Source: an uncultured Verrucomicrobia subdivision 3 bacterium
Lineage (GTDB): Bacteria > Verrucomicrobiota > Verrucomicrobiia > Limisphaerales > UBA11358
NCBI GenBank assembly: GCA_903870815.1
Contig: CAIQEI010000011.1
Span: forward strand, 1-35,955
Reading direction: 5' to 3'
Length of the DNA: 35,955 bases
Position numbers and translations under genes: made by a program. Under the pieces are notes generated by a model. It saw only the letters and a program-made list of their open reading frames with translations. It was not told the origin of the DNA and did not search any database. This document shows, piece after piece, positions 6,600-35,955 of the stretch; within the stretch, counting starts at the first letter, position 1, and each line of letters opens with the position of its first letter.

Positions 6600-8321
6600 G
6601 TGACCAAGAAAATATCCAGTTCCAAACCTCTGCGCGTCGGCCTGATCTCACTCGGCTGCGCCAAGAATCTCGTGGACGCCGAGATCATGCTCGGCTCGCT
6701 GCTCAAGGGCGGCGTCGAGATCACCAATGACGCCGCATCGGCCGACGCCGTCATCGTCAACACCTGCTCCTTCATCGATTCCGCGCAGGAGGAGAGCGTG
6801 GACACCATTCTCGAATCCGTTGAACTGCGCGATGCGAACCAGCGCGGCCAAGCCGTTATCGTCTCCGGCTGCCTTTCGCAGCGATTCCGCGACGAACTTC
6901 CCAAGCTCATGCCCGAAGTGGATGCGTTCATGGGCATTGACCAGGTCGCGCAGGTCAGCGACATCGTCGGCAACGCCATTGCCAGCCGGGCGGGGAAAGT
7001 TGGAAGCGAACATTCAACGCTCAACATTCAACGCTCAACATCGAAAGGTAAAGTCGTCGGGCGCTTGAATGAACTGGAGAAGAACCGCGCTATCACCGGA
7101 CAAGAAAAGGAAGAATCCCTGCGCGGCTCGGATAAATTCGGCAAAACCAAGACCGTTATCGCGCCGGGCAAGCCATCTTCCATCCTCCATCCTCCATCCT
7201 CGCCGGTCTTCGACGTCACCCAGCGCCCCGTTTTCATCCCCGACTTCGAAACCCCACGCTTCCGACTCACGCCCAAACATTTCGCGTATCTGAAGATCGC
7301 CGAGGGCTGCAACCATCCGTGCAGTTTCTGCATCATACCCCGGATGCGCGGCACACACCGAAGCCGCACGCAGGCCGACATCGTCAAGGAAGCCCGGGCG
7401 CTCATCGCGGACGGCGTGAAGGAGATCAACCTGATTTCGCAGGACTCGACCTACTACGGCCTCGATCTGCGCCCGAACCACAGCCGCGCCATTTCGTCGC
7501 CGGAAAAGTTCTCCGCCGCCGCCAAATCGCTGACCGCCGATGCCACGACCATCTGCACGCTGCTGCGCGAACTCAACTCGCTTAAGAGCGATTTCTGGAT
7601 CCGCCTCCTCTACACCCATCCCGCGCACTGGACGGATGAGCTCATCCGGACCATCGCCGACTGCAAGAAGGTTGCGCGCTACGTGGATATTCCGCTCCAG
7701 CACATTCACGAAAACATGCTCGAACGGATGCGCCGCGAAACCTCGCAGCAATACATCGTGGACCTGATCCAGCGCATCCGCGCCGGGATTCCCGGCATCG
7801 CCTTGCGCACCACGTTCATCGTCGGCTTTCCCGGTGAAACCGAGGCCAGCTTCAACGCGCTGCTCGATTTCATCCGCGACACCAAATTCGAACGCCTCGG
7901 CGTGTTTGCCTATTCCAAGGAAGACGGCACGCGCGCCGGCGCAATGGCCGGCCAGCTTTCCGACAAGGTGAAGCAAAAGCGCCGCGAACTCGCCATGGCC
8001 GCGCAGCACAAGGTCGCCATCGCCGTCTCGGAAAGTTTTGTGGGCCGCGAGATCAAAGTCCTCATCGAGGGAGAGGCAAACGCCAAGCAGCTTCAGAGCG
8101 CCAACGTCAGTTCATGGGAGCACGGACTGATCCGCGAAACGGACAAGCACACCGCGCAGATGAAAGGCCACTACTTCGTGGCGCGCGGCGAGGCGGACGC
8201 GCCGGACATTGATGGCCGCATCTATATCCGCGCGGTCAAAGGCGCTTTGCCGGTCGGCCAGTTCGCCAAGGTTAAGGTCATCGGCCACACCGATTACGAT
8301 TTAATTGCCGAGCCGGTTTGA
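6600..8321 (+). CDS. rimO: Ribosomal protein uS12 methylthiotransferase RimO, enlarged
   Basis: Radical-SAM enzyme that adds a methylthio group to a conserved aspartate of ribosomal protein S12. N-terminal UPF0004 domain with its three cluster cysteines (C20 in SLGCAKN, C56 in NTCSF, C91 in SGCLSQR), radical-SAM CxxxCxxC (C237, C241, C244 in EGCNHPCSFC), and a C-terminal TRAM domain (about 505-573). At 573 residues it is some 130 longer than the usual ~440. Much of the excess lies between residues 132 and 206, just before the radical-SAM domain, where two heptanucleotide repeat tracts are translated as HSTLNIQRSTS and PSSILHPPSSP. Smaller extra segments occur near residues 285-315 and 490-520. 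All catalytic motifs are intact, so it is probably functional. Start is GTG at 6600; no in-frame ATG precedes the SLGC motif. Confidence 0.95.
   Translation: MTKKISSSKPLRVGLISLGCAKNLVDAEIMLGSLLKGGVEITNDAASADAVIVNTCSFIDSAQEESVDTILESVELRDANQRGQAVIVSGCLSQRFRDELPKLMPEVDAFMGIDQVAQVSDIVGNAIASRAGKVGSEHSTLNIQRSTSKGKVVGRLNELEKNRAITGQEKEESLRGSDKFGKTKTVIAPGKPSSILHPPSSPVFDVTQRPVFIPDFETPRFRLTPKHFAYLKIAEGCNHPCSFCIIPRMRGTHRSRTQADIVKEARALIADGVKEINLISQDSTYYGLDLRPNHSRAISSPEKFSAAAKSLTADATTICTLLRELNSLKSDFWIRLLYTHPAHWTDELIRTIADCKKVARYVDIPLQHIHENMLERMRRETSQQYIVDLIQRIRAGIPGIALRTTFIVGFPGETEASFNALLDFIRDTKFERLGVFAYSKEDGTRAGAMAGQLSDKVKQKRRELAMAAQHKVAIAVSESFVGREIKVLIEGEANAKQLQSANVSSWEHGLIRETDKHTAQMKGHYFVARGEADAPDIDGRIYIRAVKGALPVGQFAKVKVIGHTDYDLIAEPV
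7011..7045. repeat. Heptanucleotide tandem repeat inside rimO (first)
   Basis: Five 7-base units: CATTCAA, CGCTCAA, CATTCAA, CGCTCAA, CATCGAA. The alternation of two unit types makes it also a 14-base repeat. It is in open frame and lies in the linker before the radical-SAM domain. Confidence 0.9.
7173..7200. repeat. Heptanucleotide tandem repeat inside rimO (second)
   Basis: Four 7-base units: CCATCTT followed by three identical CCATCCT. It is translated in frame as a Pro/Ser-rich linker and lies about 130 bases after the first tract of the same gene. Confidence 0.92.
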
Positions 8322-9321: not shown

Positions 9322-10005
9322 ATGTCCACTCTCGTCTGTTTCGCCCTGAAAGAAGAAGCCGCGCCGTTTCACAAAATCGCGGCCGGGCGGCCGGGCGTTT
9401 TCACCGTCATCACCGGCATTGGCCGCCAGAATGCGGAGAAATCCGTGCGCAACATGCTGGCGGCCTGTTCGCCAGAGCTGGTGCTGACCTGCGGTTTCGC
9501 CGGCGGCTTGAATCCTGACTTGAAAATCGGCGACGTGGTTTTTGAAGTCCCTTCCCGTAGCCGCCGAGGTAACGAGGCTCAAACTGAAAACGGCAATCAG
9601 TCAGAGCCTCCTCACGTCGGCTCCTACGATAAATTGCTCGCCGCCGGGGCTAAGAACGTAAGATTTTTTTGCGCTGAACGCATCGCCACCACCGTCGCCG
9701 AGAAGAAACAACTATGCGAGCAGACCGGCGCGGACGCGGTGGAGATGGAATCGGCGGCAATTCACGCCGTCTGCGCGGATAAAAACATCCCCTGCGTAAC
9801 CGTGCGGGTGATCTCCGACACGGCGGGCGAGGATTTGCCGCTGGATTTCAACGCGCTGGCCAAGTCGGACCGGAGCATTGATTTCGGCAAGCTGGCGTGG
9901 GCCATCGCAAAGTCGCCGGGGAAAATCGGGGCGCTGATGGCGTTGCAGAAGAAAACCAGTTTTGCGGCGGAGCGGCTGGCGGCGGTGTTATCCAAAATCC
10001 TGTAG
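9322..10005 (+). CDS. Nucleoside phosphorylase/nucleosidase family (MTAN- or HpnG-like) with in-frame insert
   Basis: PNP/UDP-phosphorylase fold protein of 227 residues. Core features: CFALKEEAAPF and TGIGRQNA near the N-terminus, GFAGGLN, the ribose-binding VEMESAA and the catalytic-Asp segment VRVISDTA. This fits 5'-methylthioadenosine/S-adenosylhomocysteine nucleosidases and the related hopanoid-locus HpnG enzyme, which releases adenine from adenosylhopane. Facing hpnK and hpnD downstream supports an HpnG-like role but does not prove it. Residues 79-103 (bases 9556-9628) are a palindromic element in open frame, in the loop after strand GDVVFE and before YDKLLAAGA; removing it gives about 202 residues. 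The TAG stop (10003-10005) is inside the left arm of another copy of the same element. Confidence 0.85.
   Translation: MSTLVCFALKEEAAPFHKIAAGRPGVFTVITGIGRQNAEKSVRNMLAACSPELVLTCGFAGGLNPDLKIGDVVFEVPSRSRRGNEAQTENGNQSEPPHVGSYDKLLAAGAKNVRFFCAERIATTVAEKKQLCEQTGADAVEMESAAIHAVCADKNIPCVTVRVISDTAGEDLPLDFNALAKSDRSIDFGKLAWAIAKSPGKIGALMALQKKTSFAAERLAAVLSKIL
9556..9628. repeat. GTAGCC palindromic element inserted in frame in a coding gene
   Basis: Left arm CGTAGCCGCCGAGGTAACGA (9556-9575, continuing GGCTC to 9580) pairs with the reverse complement of 9604-9628 at 18 or so of 25 positions. The inner GAGGCTC (9574-9580) and GAGCCTC (9604-9610) match perfectly, and ACTGA (9583-9587)/TCAGT (9597-9601) extend the stem. 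The 73 bases encode about 25 residues without a stop because GTAG falls out of frame here. It shares its arm sequence with the element at 10002-10138. Confidence 0.85.
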
Positions 10006-10138
10006 CCGCAGAGGTGACGAGGCTCCGGCCACATTTACGATATTGGATTTACGATTTACGAGTCCGCCCCGAATGCGCCAACGGCGCGTAAATCGCATAT
10101 CGTAAATTGGAAATAAGGAGCCTCCAGTCGGTGGCTAC
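10002..10138. repeat. 137-bp nested palindromic element between convergent genes, supplying both stops
   Basis: Outer arms: GTAGCCGCAGAGGTGACGAG (10002-10021, continuing GCTCC) and GGAGCCTCCAGTCGGTGGCT (10117-10136, continuing AC). GAGGCTCC/GGAGCCTC match perfectly. Inside lie two inverted heptamer arrays: ATTTACG, ATATTGG, ATTTACG, ATTTACG (10033-10060) and CGTAAAT, CGCATAT, CGTAAAT, TGGAAAT (10087-10114), with a 26-base centre. The left GTAG gives the TAG stop of the nucleosidase gene (10003-10005); the right CTAC gives, on the minus strand, the TAG stop of the transporter gene (10135-10137). The RNA could fold into one long hairpin and may act as a bidirectional terminator or 3' stabiliser, although no U-run follows. 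Confidence 0.88.
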
Positions 10139-16034: not shown

Positions 16035-16683
16035 AAAGTTCCGGCGCCGCCGACCGCGCCGACCGCATCTTCTCCGACTCAATGATCGCCAGCGCCCGCC
16101 GCAAATCCTCCGGCTTGCTGCCACTGATGAGCAGGTAATCAAAATTTTTCCACTGTGCGATTTCCTGCCGCGCCACCGCCAACCGTTTTCGGATGACGGC
16201 CACCGCGTCGGCGCCGCGCTTTTTCAACCGCTGCTCCAGCACTTCCACCGACGGCGTTGTCAGAAAAATCGTCACCAGCGCCCGGCGCAGTTCCGGCTCG
16301 GTCTCCGCCTGCTCGCGGATGGTTGCCGCACCCTGCACATCTACGTTCAACAGAACGTCCTTGCCCTCCCGCAGCTTGCCGAGCAGCTCCGATTTCAGGA
16401 TGCCGTAACTGTTGCCATAGACTGTGGCGTGCTCGATGAAATTGCCGGCATGCAGCCGTTTTAAAAATTCTTCCGCCGTGAAAAAATGATAATCCACGCC
16501 ATCCTTCTCGCCGGGGCGCGGCGGGCGGGTCGTGCAAGTGATGGCGCGCGTCAGTTGCGGCTGGTGAGCCAGCAGCAGTTCGCACAGCGTCGTCTTGCCC
16601 GCTCCCGATGGCGCGGAAATGAGAATCAGCAGGGGCGGGGCCGGCTTTGGGCTTTGGACTGTGGACTTTGGACTCTTCATCAT
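16033..16683 (-). CDS. gmk: Guanylate kinase
   Basis: 216 residues; phosphorylates GMP to GDP. P-loop APSGAGKTT (S26-G27-A28-G29-K30-T31), GMP-binding TTRPPRPGEKDGVDYHF, YGNSYG, and the NVDVQGA Walker B-like strand. The N-terminal 17 residues (MMKSPKSTVQSPKPAPP) come almost entirely from a heptanucleotide tract, and no other ATG lies between it and the P-loop, so the repeat must be translated unless a rare start is used. It overlaps the yicC stop by 4 bases. Confidence 0.95.
   Translation of the reverse strand: MMKSPKSTVQSPKPAPPLLILISAPSGAGKTTLCELLLAHQPQLTRAITCTTRPPRPGEKDGVDYHFFTAEEFLKRLHAGNFIEHATVYGNSYGILKSELLGKLREGKDVLLNVDVQGAATIREQAETEPELRRALVTIFLTTPSVEVLEQRLKKRGADAVAVIRKRLAVARQEIAQWKNFDYLLISGSKPEDLRRALAIIESEKMRSARSAAPEL
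16643..16677. repeat. Heptanucleotide repeat forming the gmk N-terminus
   Basis: Five units GGCTTTG, GGCTTTG, GACTGTG, GACTTTG, GACTCTT on the + strand. On the coding strand they begin directly after the second ATG and encode SPKSTVQSPKP. Confidence 0.88.
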
Positions 16684-19013: not shown

Positions 19014-19850
19014 ATGGGCGTGCCCGAGACCAGCCTGCTGCTCCTCATCCCGGCTTACAACGAAGAAGTGCGCATCGAACCGGTGCTGCGCGAATTCGCC
19101 GTTTTTTTCCAAGGGAATTATTCCGGTCCGTTCCAGCTGGTGGTGGTGCTCAATGGCTGCACGGACAATACGCTGGGCGTGGTAAAGCGGGTGGCGGCGG
19201 AGTTTCCCTGCGTAGGGTGGCTGGATTTTCCGGCGGCCATCGGCAAGGGCGGCGCGCTCATCGAGGGCCTCAAGCTCGCCGGCCACGCGGATTTGATCGG
19301 CTACGTGGACGCGGATGGCGCAACGCCGCCGCACGCGTATCTGGACCTAGTGAAAAAAATCGGCGGCCCGGATTGCGTCATTGGATCGCGCTGGCTTCCG
19401 GGCGCGGTCATCCACCAGTCGCAGACGGGCAACCGGCAGTTCGCAAGCCGGGTATTTCACATGATCGTGCAGACGCTGTTCTGGATGAACATCCGGGACA
19501 CGCAATGCGGCGCGAAAGTGATGAAACGGGCAGTTGCGGAAAAAATTCATCCCGCGTTGCGCATCGCCGACATGGCATTCGACATCAACCTGCTCTACTC
19601 GATGAAGCACGCCGGCTTCCGCATCCTGGAGGTGCCGACGGAATGGACGGATCAGGCGGGCTCGAAGGTGGCGCTGGGGCGTTCGTCATTAACTATGTTC
19701 TTGTCGGTGGTGAGAATCCGGCTGATCTACTCGCCGTTTTATAAATGGCTCCGGCCGCTGCGCCCGCTGGAAGGGTGGATTTACAAAAAATTACGCGCAC
19801 CGCAACCGCTGGCGGCGGCCCAAGTCCCAAGTCCCAAATCCCAAATCTAA
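19014..19850 (+). CDS. GT2 glycosyltransferase, dolichyl/polyprenyl-phosphate glucosyltransferase-like
   Basis: 278 residues with a GT-A fold: IPAYNEE at the N-terminus, VVVLNGCTDNT, the DxD metal site in YVDADG, GSRWLPGA, and DTQCGAKVMKR followed by the MAFDINLLY helix. Such enzymes transfer a sugar from a nucleotide donor to a lipid phosphate. No membrane anchor is seen. The C-terminal VPSPKSQI and the stop codon come from a heptanucleotide tract, so the original C-terminus was probably replaced or extended. It ends 14 bases before the convergent flippase gene. Confidence 0.9.
   Translation: MGVPETSLLLLIPAYNEEVRIEPVLREFAVFFQGNYSGPFQLVVVLNGCTDNTLGVVKRVAAEFPCVGWLDFPAAIGKGGALIEGLKLAGHADLIGYVDADGATPPHAYLDLVKKIGGPDCVIGSRWLPGAVIHQSQTGNRQFASRVFHMIVQTLFWMNIRDTQCGAKVMKRAVAEKIHPALRIADMAFDINLLYSMKHAGFRILEVPTEWTDQAGSKVALGRSSLTMFLSVVRIRLIYSPFYKWLRPLRPLEGWIYKKLRAPQPLAAAQVPSPKSQI
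19819..19846. repeat. Heptanucleotide repeat at the GT2 3' end
   Basis: Four units CCCAAGT, CCCAAGT, CCCAAAT, CCCAAAT, followed by CTAA, which holds the TAA stop. The unit resembles the CCCCA(A/G)T type of cyanobacterial STRR repeats. Confidence 0.9.
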
Positions 19851-32081: not shown

Positions 32082-33419
32082 TCACCGGCGCAAAAGTAGG
32101 CGCAGCAGGAGCCGGTCAACCATACCGACGCGGGGACGCGGATTTTTCAAGGCCGCAGCGACTGCCTCGCTCAACCCGGCGGCAAATCGTTCCGGCCCCC
32201 ATGCGGAAATGATCCGGCGGCTGGCGGCGCCAAAATCGGCGAGGGGAAAATTGCCGGCAGAAGTTTTCAGCAGCAGCTGGGAGAGTTCATCCACGTTGCC
32301 TGGATCAAATTGAAAGCCGTTCACACCCGGCAAAACTAAATCCGCGGCGCAGCCGCTGCGGTTGGATACCAAAACCGGCAGGCCGGAAGCCATCGCTTCG
32401 TTCACAACCAGCCCCCACTGTTCCGTGGTGCTCGCGTGAACAAAAGCGCCCGCCAAGGCGTAATACGCCGGCAAATCGGCATATTGCTTGAAGCCCGGCA
32501 GATAGACGCAGTTTCCGAGGCCGAGCTCCGCAATCAACTTTTGCAACCCCGGTTTGAACGGTCCATCCCCAAGCAGAACCAGGTTCCAAATGTCCGATTT
32601 CCGCCGCCTCTCCTCACCGTCTGGAAAGAGGGCTGGGGCGGGGCATTCGTTAGCTTCTATTTTTTGCTTTCTGCTTTCTGGTTTTACTTCCGCTAGTTCG
32701 CGATACCGCGCAAACGCCTCAATGAGCCGGAATAGATTTTTTTTCTCCACAAAACGCGCGCTCGCCAGAAAATATTTTTCCGGCAAAGCCTGAAGATTTC
32801 GGATTTCAGATTGCGGATTGCGGATGAAATCGGTCTGGCCCGAAAAATAGGCGTTGTCCACGACATCATAGCCGAGGAAGACGCGAGCGCGGGCGAGGCC
32901 AAGCTGGACGAGGTAATCGGCATGTGGACCGCCGCCGGCCAGCCCGGCAGAATTCAGTTTCACCAGCCGACTTTTTATCGATTCCTTCCACAGAACGCGC
33001 GGTTCGTCCCACGCGGTGCTTTCGGACATGACCACCGAGGGCGTATGCGTTTCCGCGCACCACAAGAGGGCGCTCAAGGCATCGGCGGAGGCCCAGCCGG
33101 GAACCACGACGGCCTGCGGCTTGATTTTGTCAAGGGTTCGCCACATTTTGCGGCGCAGTTCCTGTTTCCATTGCCGGTCGCCGGAATCGCGGTGAGTCAG
33201 CGTGACGCGCGTGAAGGCGGCCGCGCCTTCCACTTTTTCCCAGGCGTAGGTGCCTTCGGAGGCGCAGGCTTCCACGCCCCAAACCGACATCAGTCGTCCG
33301 GCCGCATTCAGGCGCGCATGATGATACGGGCCGAAACGATGGAACAAGACGGCGACCCGGGTGGCGGCCGGCAATGCATTTCCACTGCCGCTGGCCGATG
33401 AGATTGAAGAATGATCCAC
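32082..33419 (-). CDS. GT4 glycosyltransferase with three repeat insertions
   Basis: 445 residues, GT-B fold; acceptor half with LFHRFGPYHHARLNA, donor half with TTEQWGLVVNEAMASGLPV (EX7E). Three repeat-derived segments are in frame: NPQSEIRNLQ (bases 32795-32822), SRKQKIEA (32652-32686) and PAPALFPDGEERRR (32607-32643). The last two form a ~31-residue insertion just before the strand WNLVLLGDGPF, making the protein longer than usual for the family. Catalytic motifs are intact. The C-terminus LLLRLLLRR is basic and may sit on the membrane. Confidence 0.92.
   Translation of the reverse strand: MDHSSISSASGSGNALPAATRVAVLFHRFGPYHHARLNAAGRLMSVWGVEACASEGTYAWEKVEGAAAFTRVTLTHRDSGDRQWKQELRRKMWRTLDKIKPQAVVVPGWASADALSALLWCAETHTPSVVMSESTAWDEPRVLWKESIKSRLVKLNSAGLAGGGPHADYLVQLGLARARVFLGYDVVDNAYFSGQTDFIRNPQSEIRNLQALPEKYFLASARFVEKKNLFRLIEAFARYRELAEVKPESRKQKIEANECPAPALFPDGEERRRKSDIWNLVLLGDGPFKPGLQKLIAELGLGNCVYLPGFKQYADLPAYYALAGAFVHASTTEQWGLVVNEAMASGLPVLVSNRSGCAADLVLPGVNGFQFDPGNVDELSQLLLKTSAGNFPLADFGAASRRIISAWGPERFAAGLSEAVAAALKNPRPRVGMVDRLLLRLLLRR
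32607..32643. repeat. CCTCTCC/AGAGG imperfect palindrome in GT4 gene
   Basis: CCTCT (32607-32611) and AGAGG (32627-32631) pair weakly, followed by GCTGGGGCGGGG. It lies in frame next to a heptanucleotide tract. Supported mainly by its position in a family-atypical insertion. Confidence 0.45.
32652..32686. repeat. Heptanucleotide repeat in GT4 gene (GCTTTCT type)
   Basis: Units AGCTTCT, ATTTTTT, GCTTTCT, GCTTTCT, GGTTTTA; translated as a Lys-rich segment on the minus strand. Confidence 0.7.
32795..32822. repeat. Heptanucleotide repeat in GT4 gene (GATTKCG type)
   Basis: Units GATTTCG, GATTTCA, GATTGCG, GATTGCG. On the coding strand this is CGCAATC repeated, the same heptamer as in the ABC ATPase N-terminus at 2292, and gives the same peptide type (NPQSEIR versus NPQSAIR). 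Confidence 0.9.
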
Positions 33420-35137: not shown

Positions 35138-35955
35138 TCACTTCAAATGAGCCTCCAACCGCGTCAAGTTGGTGGCCAACCGGTCAAGGGTGAACTGCCC
35201 GGCTTTCACCAAGGCTGATGCTGATTGGGAAGACAGCAATGCTGGCTGTGCAATATACCTCTGGAATGCCCGCACCAGCGCCCCAACATCACGGGCTGGA
35301 ACGATAAAACCATCCGAACCATCACTGACCACATCCCCGCAACATGGCGTGGTGATGACCGGCAAGCCATGAGCCATCGCTTCCAGTTGCGTGAGGGCAA
35401 AACCATCCGAAAGCGTCGGTAGCACAAACACGTCGGCCTGCCGATACCAAGCTGCCGCCTGATCACGGCTGATGCGACCGTGAAAAGTCACGTTGCCCGG
35501 CGCGGTCGCGATTGCCTCCCGGGAAATTCCAACGGGTCCCACTATATCGAAATGAATATTCTCCCGCTCCAGTTGCCGCGCCGCCGCGAGCAAGTATTGA
35601 ATCCCCTTGCGCAGAATCACCTGGCCGAGAAACAGCACGCGAACCGGCGCGCTGGATTTGCGGTTTGCGGTTCGCGATGTGCGGGTTGCTTCGCCAGCTT
35701 CGAAACACAGTGGAATAACAGTCAGCTTTTCGGATGGCACACCTTGCTGAAACAGGGCCTGGCGGGAAAATTCCGAGTTCACTACGATGCGGTCGGCCAG
35801 CGCCCATTCCTGTTCACGCCGGGCAAAATACTCCTCCGGCACCTGCAAGCTCCGCGTCGTCCAGCCAGGCCAGATATTTTCCTCCGCGCGAACCAGTTCG
35901 ACCTCCGCGCGGTTCGGATCCATCTGATTCAAGATGGTTTTGATTTTTTGCTCGC
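35138..35955 (-). CDS. GT4 glycosyltransferase (N-terminus outside the window)
   Basis: The frame is open to the window edge, so the start is missing; about 270 residues are visible, the C-terminal two-thirds of a GT-B enzyme. Inter-domain VNSEFSRQALFQQGVPSEKLTVIPLCFE, then VRVLFLGQVILRKGIQYLL and the donor-site SDGFALTQLEAMAHGLPVI, where the first residue of the EX7E motif is Asp rather than Glu. Between FEAGE and APVRVLFLG about 12 residues (TRTSRTANRKSS) come from a heptanucleotide repeat. It is the most upstream visible gene of the exopolysaccharide operon. Confidence 0.9.
   Translation of the reverse strand, partial: EQKIKTILNQMDPNRAEVELVRAEENIWPGWTTRSLQVPEEYFARREQEWALADRIVVNSEFSRQALFQQGVPSEKLTVIPLCFEAGEATRTSRTANRKSSAPVRVLFLGQVILRKGIQYLLAAARQLERENIHFDIVGPVGISREAIATAPGNVTFHGRISRDQAAAWYRQADVFVLPTLSDGFALTQLEAMAHGLPVITTPCCGDVVSDGSDGFIVPARDVGALVRAFQRYIAQPALLSSQSASALVKAGQFTLDRLATNLTRLEAHLK
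35654..35689. repeat. Heptanucleotide repeat in partial GT4 gene
   Basis: Units GGATTTGC (8 bases), GGTTTGC, GGTTCGC, GATGTGC, GGGTTGC on the + strand; in frame in the hinge between the two Rossmann domains. Confidence 0.85.

Follow-up and report, generated by a model that had tools for sequence, protein, structure and literature searches.

How does a palindromic repeat come to lie in frame inside an enzyme gene, and what becomes of the enzyme? The question is raised by a 35,955 nt stretch of DNA (referred to here as the window), which forms contig C11 in a metagenome bin (3.17 Mb) from an uncultured Verrucomicrobia subdivision 3 bacterium. An earlier reading of these letters (the original prediction) had noticed a hairpin within a nucleosidase gene. 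The hairpin is indeed there, palindromic and in frame (Table 1), and a profile search of the 227-aa ORF matches PF01048 on both sides of it (residues 16-171, E 4e-23). The closest family is HpnG, and the PDB relatives are MTANs. Because the TIGR03468 (HpnG) score of 109.7 bits (E 1e-31) is below the curated cut-off of 187.1 bits, we describe the putative product as HpnG-like rather than as a certified HpnG, although HpnK and HpnD genes, both of which exceed their curated cut-offs, are close by on the opposite strand. Comparison with seven congeners, excluding the loop that contains the hairpin, gave dN/dS values of 0.14-0.22, and because of these values we consider the gene to be under purifying selection; the divergence measured may predate the insert.

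Table 1. Features of the nucleosidase gene, its two GTAG dimers and the 7-nt repeats (window coordinates unless residues are given)
Feature	Position	Strand	Remarks
HpnG/MTAN-like nucleosidase gene (PNP_UDP_1 superfamily)	9322..10005	+	227 aa; stop TAG 10003-10005
GTAG REP head-to-head dimer (REPIN)	9556..9628	+	codons 79-102 and first base of codon 103
Left REP monomer, GTAGCCGCCGAGGTAACGAGGCTC	9557..9580	+	0 mismatches to genome-wide consensus; read CGT AGC CGC CGA
Spacer between REP monomers, 23 nt, AAACTGAAAACGGCAATCAGTCA	9581..9603	.	inner stem-loop of 75-nt fold
Right REP monomer, inverted, GTAGGAGCCGACGTGAGGAGGCTC	9604..9627	-	0 mismatches to consensus; gene reads EPPHVGSY
Left monomer of second GTAG dimer	10002..10025	+	1 mismatch to consensus; TAG (10003-10005) is the nucleosidase stop codon
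Long spacer of second dimer	10033..10107	.	inverted 7-nt-unit repeats 10033-10053 / 10087-10107 (inverted repeat I20, 90% complementary)
Right monomer of second dimer, GTAGCCACCGACTGGAGGCTC	10118..10138	-	3 nt short of consensus; read from sequence
Predicted tryptic peptide across the element, GNEAQTENGNQSEPPHVGSYDK	nucleosidase residues 83-104		
7-nt repeats in the window	7171-7190; 2289-2313; 16640-16683; 19817-19850; 32658-32690; 32795-32830; 35654-35680		7171-7190 lies in the RimO gene (6600-8321)

The element consists of two 24-nt arms, each with GTAG at its head, in inverse orientation on either side of a spacer. The predicted DNA fold of 9555-9629 has an energy of -20.1 kcal/mol, as compared with -8.5 +/- 2.0 kcal/mol for shuffled sequences (z -5.8, 0/200). 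No stop is read at the left-arm GTAG because the phase is CGT-AGC, which places the TAG out of phase; the original prediction was right on this point, and also in proposing that the same type of repeat acts as a stop donor 370 bp away, where the TAG of a second copy ends the gene.

The arms belong to a dispersed repeat. Pattern searches of the genome that contains the window found 50 monomers at up to 2 mismatches, with none for a reversed-pattern control; 16 of the 40 sites scored in this genome are dimers. The census combined pattern searches with fetched stretches, and all genomes in it are MAGs. Of the 49 genomes from the genus, 46 contain GTAG monomers, with a maximum of 149 copies; for the order as a whole, the figures are 45 of 78 genomes and a maximum of 384 copies, and all controls were again zero. 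Covariation over 51 distinct monomers scored 0.376, whereas shuffled sequences scored 0.126 and slid pairings no more than 0.112; compensatory changes are found in the 5-bp stem of the monomer and in pair 12-17, which closes a GTGA or GTAA loop. This covariation is not an artefact of the search, because pairs 8-21 (CG, AU or UA) and 12-17 (CG or GC) were unconstrained in the search pattern. The fold energies of single monomers are only slightly better than those of shuffles.

A candidate transposase gene accompanies the repeat. A RAYT gene at C145:15966-16568, in which the MPDHIH motif is kept, has GTAG REPs at both ends. We located this gene as an ORF beside repeat copies and then matched it in NCBIfam to NF047646 (E 7e-10), with 38.9 bits, which is below the cut-off of 80 bits. 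Pfam gave no match for it, and a PF01797 search returned seven transposase-like genes that did not include it. At 15 loci of this RAYT lineage in the genus (60-100% identical), GTAG REPs are present on both sides within 300 bp. Ten further RAYT loci of the genus (52-60% identical) have no GTAG REP of this type within 300 bp; by eye, most of their flanks show other GTAG hairpins. The flanks L275-L279, L281 and L290 show that RAYT lineages other than that of C145 have GTAG hairpins of their own with other stems, such as GTAGCAGCGGACGTGAGTCCGCTC and GTAGCCGCGGACGT, which suggests that there are several RAYT-REP pairs per genus. A RAYT flanked by its own REP is the pattern expected of REPtrons (PMC8266576), and the position of the C145-lineage RAYT points to it as the enzyme that would mobilise the REP found in the nucleosidase gene.

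GTAG heads, a stem-loop (5-13 bp of stem in this class), an inverse pair with a spacer, dispersed copies and an association with a RAYT are together the features of GTAG REPs. The 2013 study of GTAG and CGTC palindromes (PMC3733652; BMC Genomics 2013 14:522) described head-to-head dimers, RAYT association, dimers that lie in frame within genes and encode 20-30 aa, where the GTAG cases come mostly from the verrucomicrobium Opitutus terrae, and flanking ORFs that receive TAG stops from GTAG. The element described here shares the GTAG head, the 5-bp stem with its loop, the head-to-head dimer, the RAYT, the in-frame copies and the TAG stops; the host differs, being a member of the Limisphaerales (Verrucomicrobia subdivision 3) rather than Opitutus. 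It also resembles REPIN/BIME units with their RAYT (TnpA-REP), having two inverted REPs and a spacer, and a RAYT flanked by the same REP (PMC8266576). Unlike those units, which are described as mostly intergenic, it occurs as an in-frame, domain-flanked copy in at least seven genes of this one genome.

What does the element do to the protein? The loop between "GDVV" and "LLAAGA" has 31 residues in this nucleosidase, as compared with 11-12 in the outgroups and in several congeners. The original prediction had about 25 residues added; an insert in frame is what we find, but the count is lower: the loop has grown by about 20 residues net, although the element itself takes up 24 codons and one further base. 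Because the element is 73 nt long (3n+1), which is no multiple of three, while the frame has been kept, its arrival would not have been a plain addition: part of the old loop sequence was presumably lost or replaced. An AlphaFold2 model built with 77 homologues has a mean pLDDT of 92.3, and values of 50-61 occur in residues 81-100 only. The inserted segment is thus predicted to be a disordered surface loop, as had been proposed, but one that connects a strand (72-75) to a helix (97-107) rather than two strands. In solved MTANs a longer loop of other sequence begins at the same place, and neither these nor the outgroup loops that we compared contain a segment matching the insert, in agreement with the expectation that homologues from other phyla would lack it. 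The insert had further been expected to be absent from all but close relatives. It is absent from the outgroups, but two MAGs placed outside the genus by the gene tree (AV7 and AV4; L217, L223) also have, at this loop and in this phase, a GTAG pair, on either side of which old loop residues remain.

Within the genus, the same loop contains repeats of several kinds. GTAG pairs are found in G000, G006, G022, G020 and G005, with half a pair in G042; CGGA-headed pairs in G012, G021, G030 and G031; and the CTCTCCCC palindrome (CTCTCC) in G024, G040 and, in part, G046. Roughly a dozen species have tandem repeats of a 7-nt unit at this place (lag-7 self-match p <= 0.0025). The 7-nt repeats are genomic repeats too, as are the CGGA-headed units (45 in G000 and 93 in G021). 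A second loop of the nucleosidase has GTAG pairs in G006, G025 and G028. The gene tree, from which the loop columns were removed, is poorly resolved; on it, GTAG presence takes 8 changes and all repeat classes take 19, and the AU test does not reject a single GTAG clade (p 0.48 within the genus, 0.08 overall). The right junctions of the congeners' GTAG pairs are alike, and these pairs may come from one insertion. Counting all repeat classes, several events are needed, because the classes found in the loop are unrelated.

The CGGA-headed pairs form a second dimer family, with stems such as GGGAC/GTCCC; we observed them in four HpnG-like loops (L014, L015, L020 and L022) and genome-wide in G000, G021 and G031. 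We considered the RAYT lineage of 52-60% identity as their partner and rejected it, since there are no CGGA copies beside the loci of that lineage.

In-frame repeats are not confined to the nucleosidase. Seven of the 40 sites in the window's own genome are in frame with a Pfam domain on both sides, in genes for the nucleosidase, IleS, LpxB, a U32 peptidase, a phosphodiesterase, an MFS transporter and ArsA; this count excludes a copy in PlsY (C145:14650), which is N-terminal and has an uncertain start. Among the eight left arms in long coding frames whose phase could be scored, six are read xGT-AGx, two GTA-Gxx and none xxG-TAG. Three GTAG units in one reading phase are also present in a 1417-aa Ser/Thr kinase ORF (L062; G000:C53:9238, 9817 and 10126), where they lie beyond the kinase domain and, not being domain-flanked, fall outside the seven.

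Compared with a solved bacterial IleRS (PDB 8c9e), the IleS of G000 has inserts of 28 and 12 residues. The first site has a short 14-residue form in 13 of the 25 readable species and is 4-36 residues longer in the others, where the extra residues come from GTAG pairs (G000, G038, G042 and G009), one half of a pair (G044) or other sequences. The second site contains different 7-nt repeats and other repeats across the genus. In the IleS of G046 (L299), a segment of about 20 residues, VGTSCRSSQTSEAAQQRGPT, is present at two different loops. Tandem repeats of 7-nt units (such as AATCCGC, CCATCCT and AAGTCCC) also occur in frame in several genes of the window, either internally or at a gene end; the RimO encoded there is 573 aa long, as compared with a 432-position model.

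We weighed other accounts of the hairpin. One is that it is a chance palindrome or the outcome of ordinary loop divergence, given that loops of this nucleosidase family vary in length; with both arms matching exactly a repeat that has 50 genomic copies, a control of 0 and a fold at z -5.8, we regard this as vanishingly improbable, and copy number by itself refutes a chance palindrome. The original prediction had named the Rickettsia palindromic element as the nearest parallel, and membership of that family would fit the shared habit, since its palindromes too are read in frame, within genes that probably remain functional (PMC3733652). As a functional parallel this stands, but the family is that of the GTAG REPs/REPINs, with a transposase of its own and a donation of TAG stops that had already been described (PMC3733652). 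RPEs are of the CGTC class, have no known transposase and occur in another phylum; RPE-4 and RPE-6 are placed among the CGTC repeats, for which there is no dedicated transposase (PMC3733652), and the head found here is GTAG in both arms, with an associated RAYT. The two are thus set apart by described features, their in-frame location is a habit in common and no proof of kinship, and we consider membership very unlikely. Much the same low probability attaches to the idea that the hairpin never reaches the finished protein, being cut out by RNA excision or passed over by ribosomal bypass, in the manner of an intron or a byp element. Although the hairpin is strong, the segment contains no stop, exact removal of 3n+1 nucleotides would break the frame, and every loop length in the genus members examined is a multiple of 3 nt; we rejected both forms of the idea on this frame arithmetic.

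A further alternative is that the loop has been recruited, such that the segment tunes activity or partner binding and is kept by selection. In MTANs, this loop sits close to the interface between subunits and to the active site of the partner subunit, and the residues preceding the loop in our nucleosidase can be aligned with the MTAN segment at which it begins; several congeners, moreover, keep GTAG-derived loops that are alike in length and at the right junction. Nonetheless, the sequence and length of the loop vary freely between species, unrelated repeats occupy the same place, many species have none, the segment is predicted to be disordered, and the same repeats occur in unrelated proteins. 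We therefore think recruitment unlikely, although less so than the accounts above.

We propose instead, with considerable confidence, that a GTAG REP dimer entered the loop and survives there since the frame stays open and the surface loop tolerates a disordered segment. The element would be a non-autonomous GTAG-type REP dimer (a REPIN/BIME unit) of the RAYT (TnpA-REP) kind, a copy of which would have entered the loop after strand 72-75 at some time in the genus, replacing part of the loop of 11-12 residues. This copy would have persisted, at close to no cost or benefit, because its arms and spacer are free of stops in this phase and because the loop accepts a hydrophilic, disordered segment; with no stop and a tolerant loop, the gene would be translated straight through the element, and the enzyme probably still works. 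The TAG stop provided by the copy at the end of the gene would be fortuitous. The loop itself appears to be a permissive site, which takes up other repeat families in other species of the genus; the gene having been picked for carrying an insert, we use the word permissive and stop short of calling the loop a hotspot.

On balance, and with less assurance than for the nucleosidase loop itself, we favour a broader reading for this genus. Surface loops in conserved enzymes, namely the nucleosidase and IleS (two loops), would time and again have received repeats in independent events, from four or more classes that are unrelated to each other (GTAG pairs, CGGA-headed pairs, the CTCTCC palindrome and 7-nt tandem repeats), and essential proteins would in general gain new disordered peptide from mobile and tandem repeats. 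The type of event has been known since 2013, and that report included a single instance, recB of two Xanthomonas, in which different REPs lie at roughly one position of a gene (PMC3733652); unlike the recB case, several unrelated repeat classes occupy one loop across a genus here. What appears to be new is the scale, with one loop refilled by unrelated repeats. In the literature within our reach, outside which most subscription journals lie, we found no report of unrelated repeat classes occupying one loop in succession among the species of a genus, and a search for other reports of verrucomicrobial in-gene repeats returned only PMC3733652.

The nucleosidase gene, followed species by species, offers a view of how mobile repeats join proteins, where they land and which phase survives, and IleS indicates that even an essential enzyme can bear repeat-coded segments. 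Annotation and structure pipelines will encounter linkers encoded by repeats in this group of soil bacteria. Since dozens of its species have been sequenced and such loops are numerous, the genus amounts to a natural insertion scan, in which neutral filler may be distinguished from useful REPIN-coded segments.
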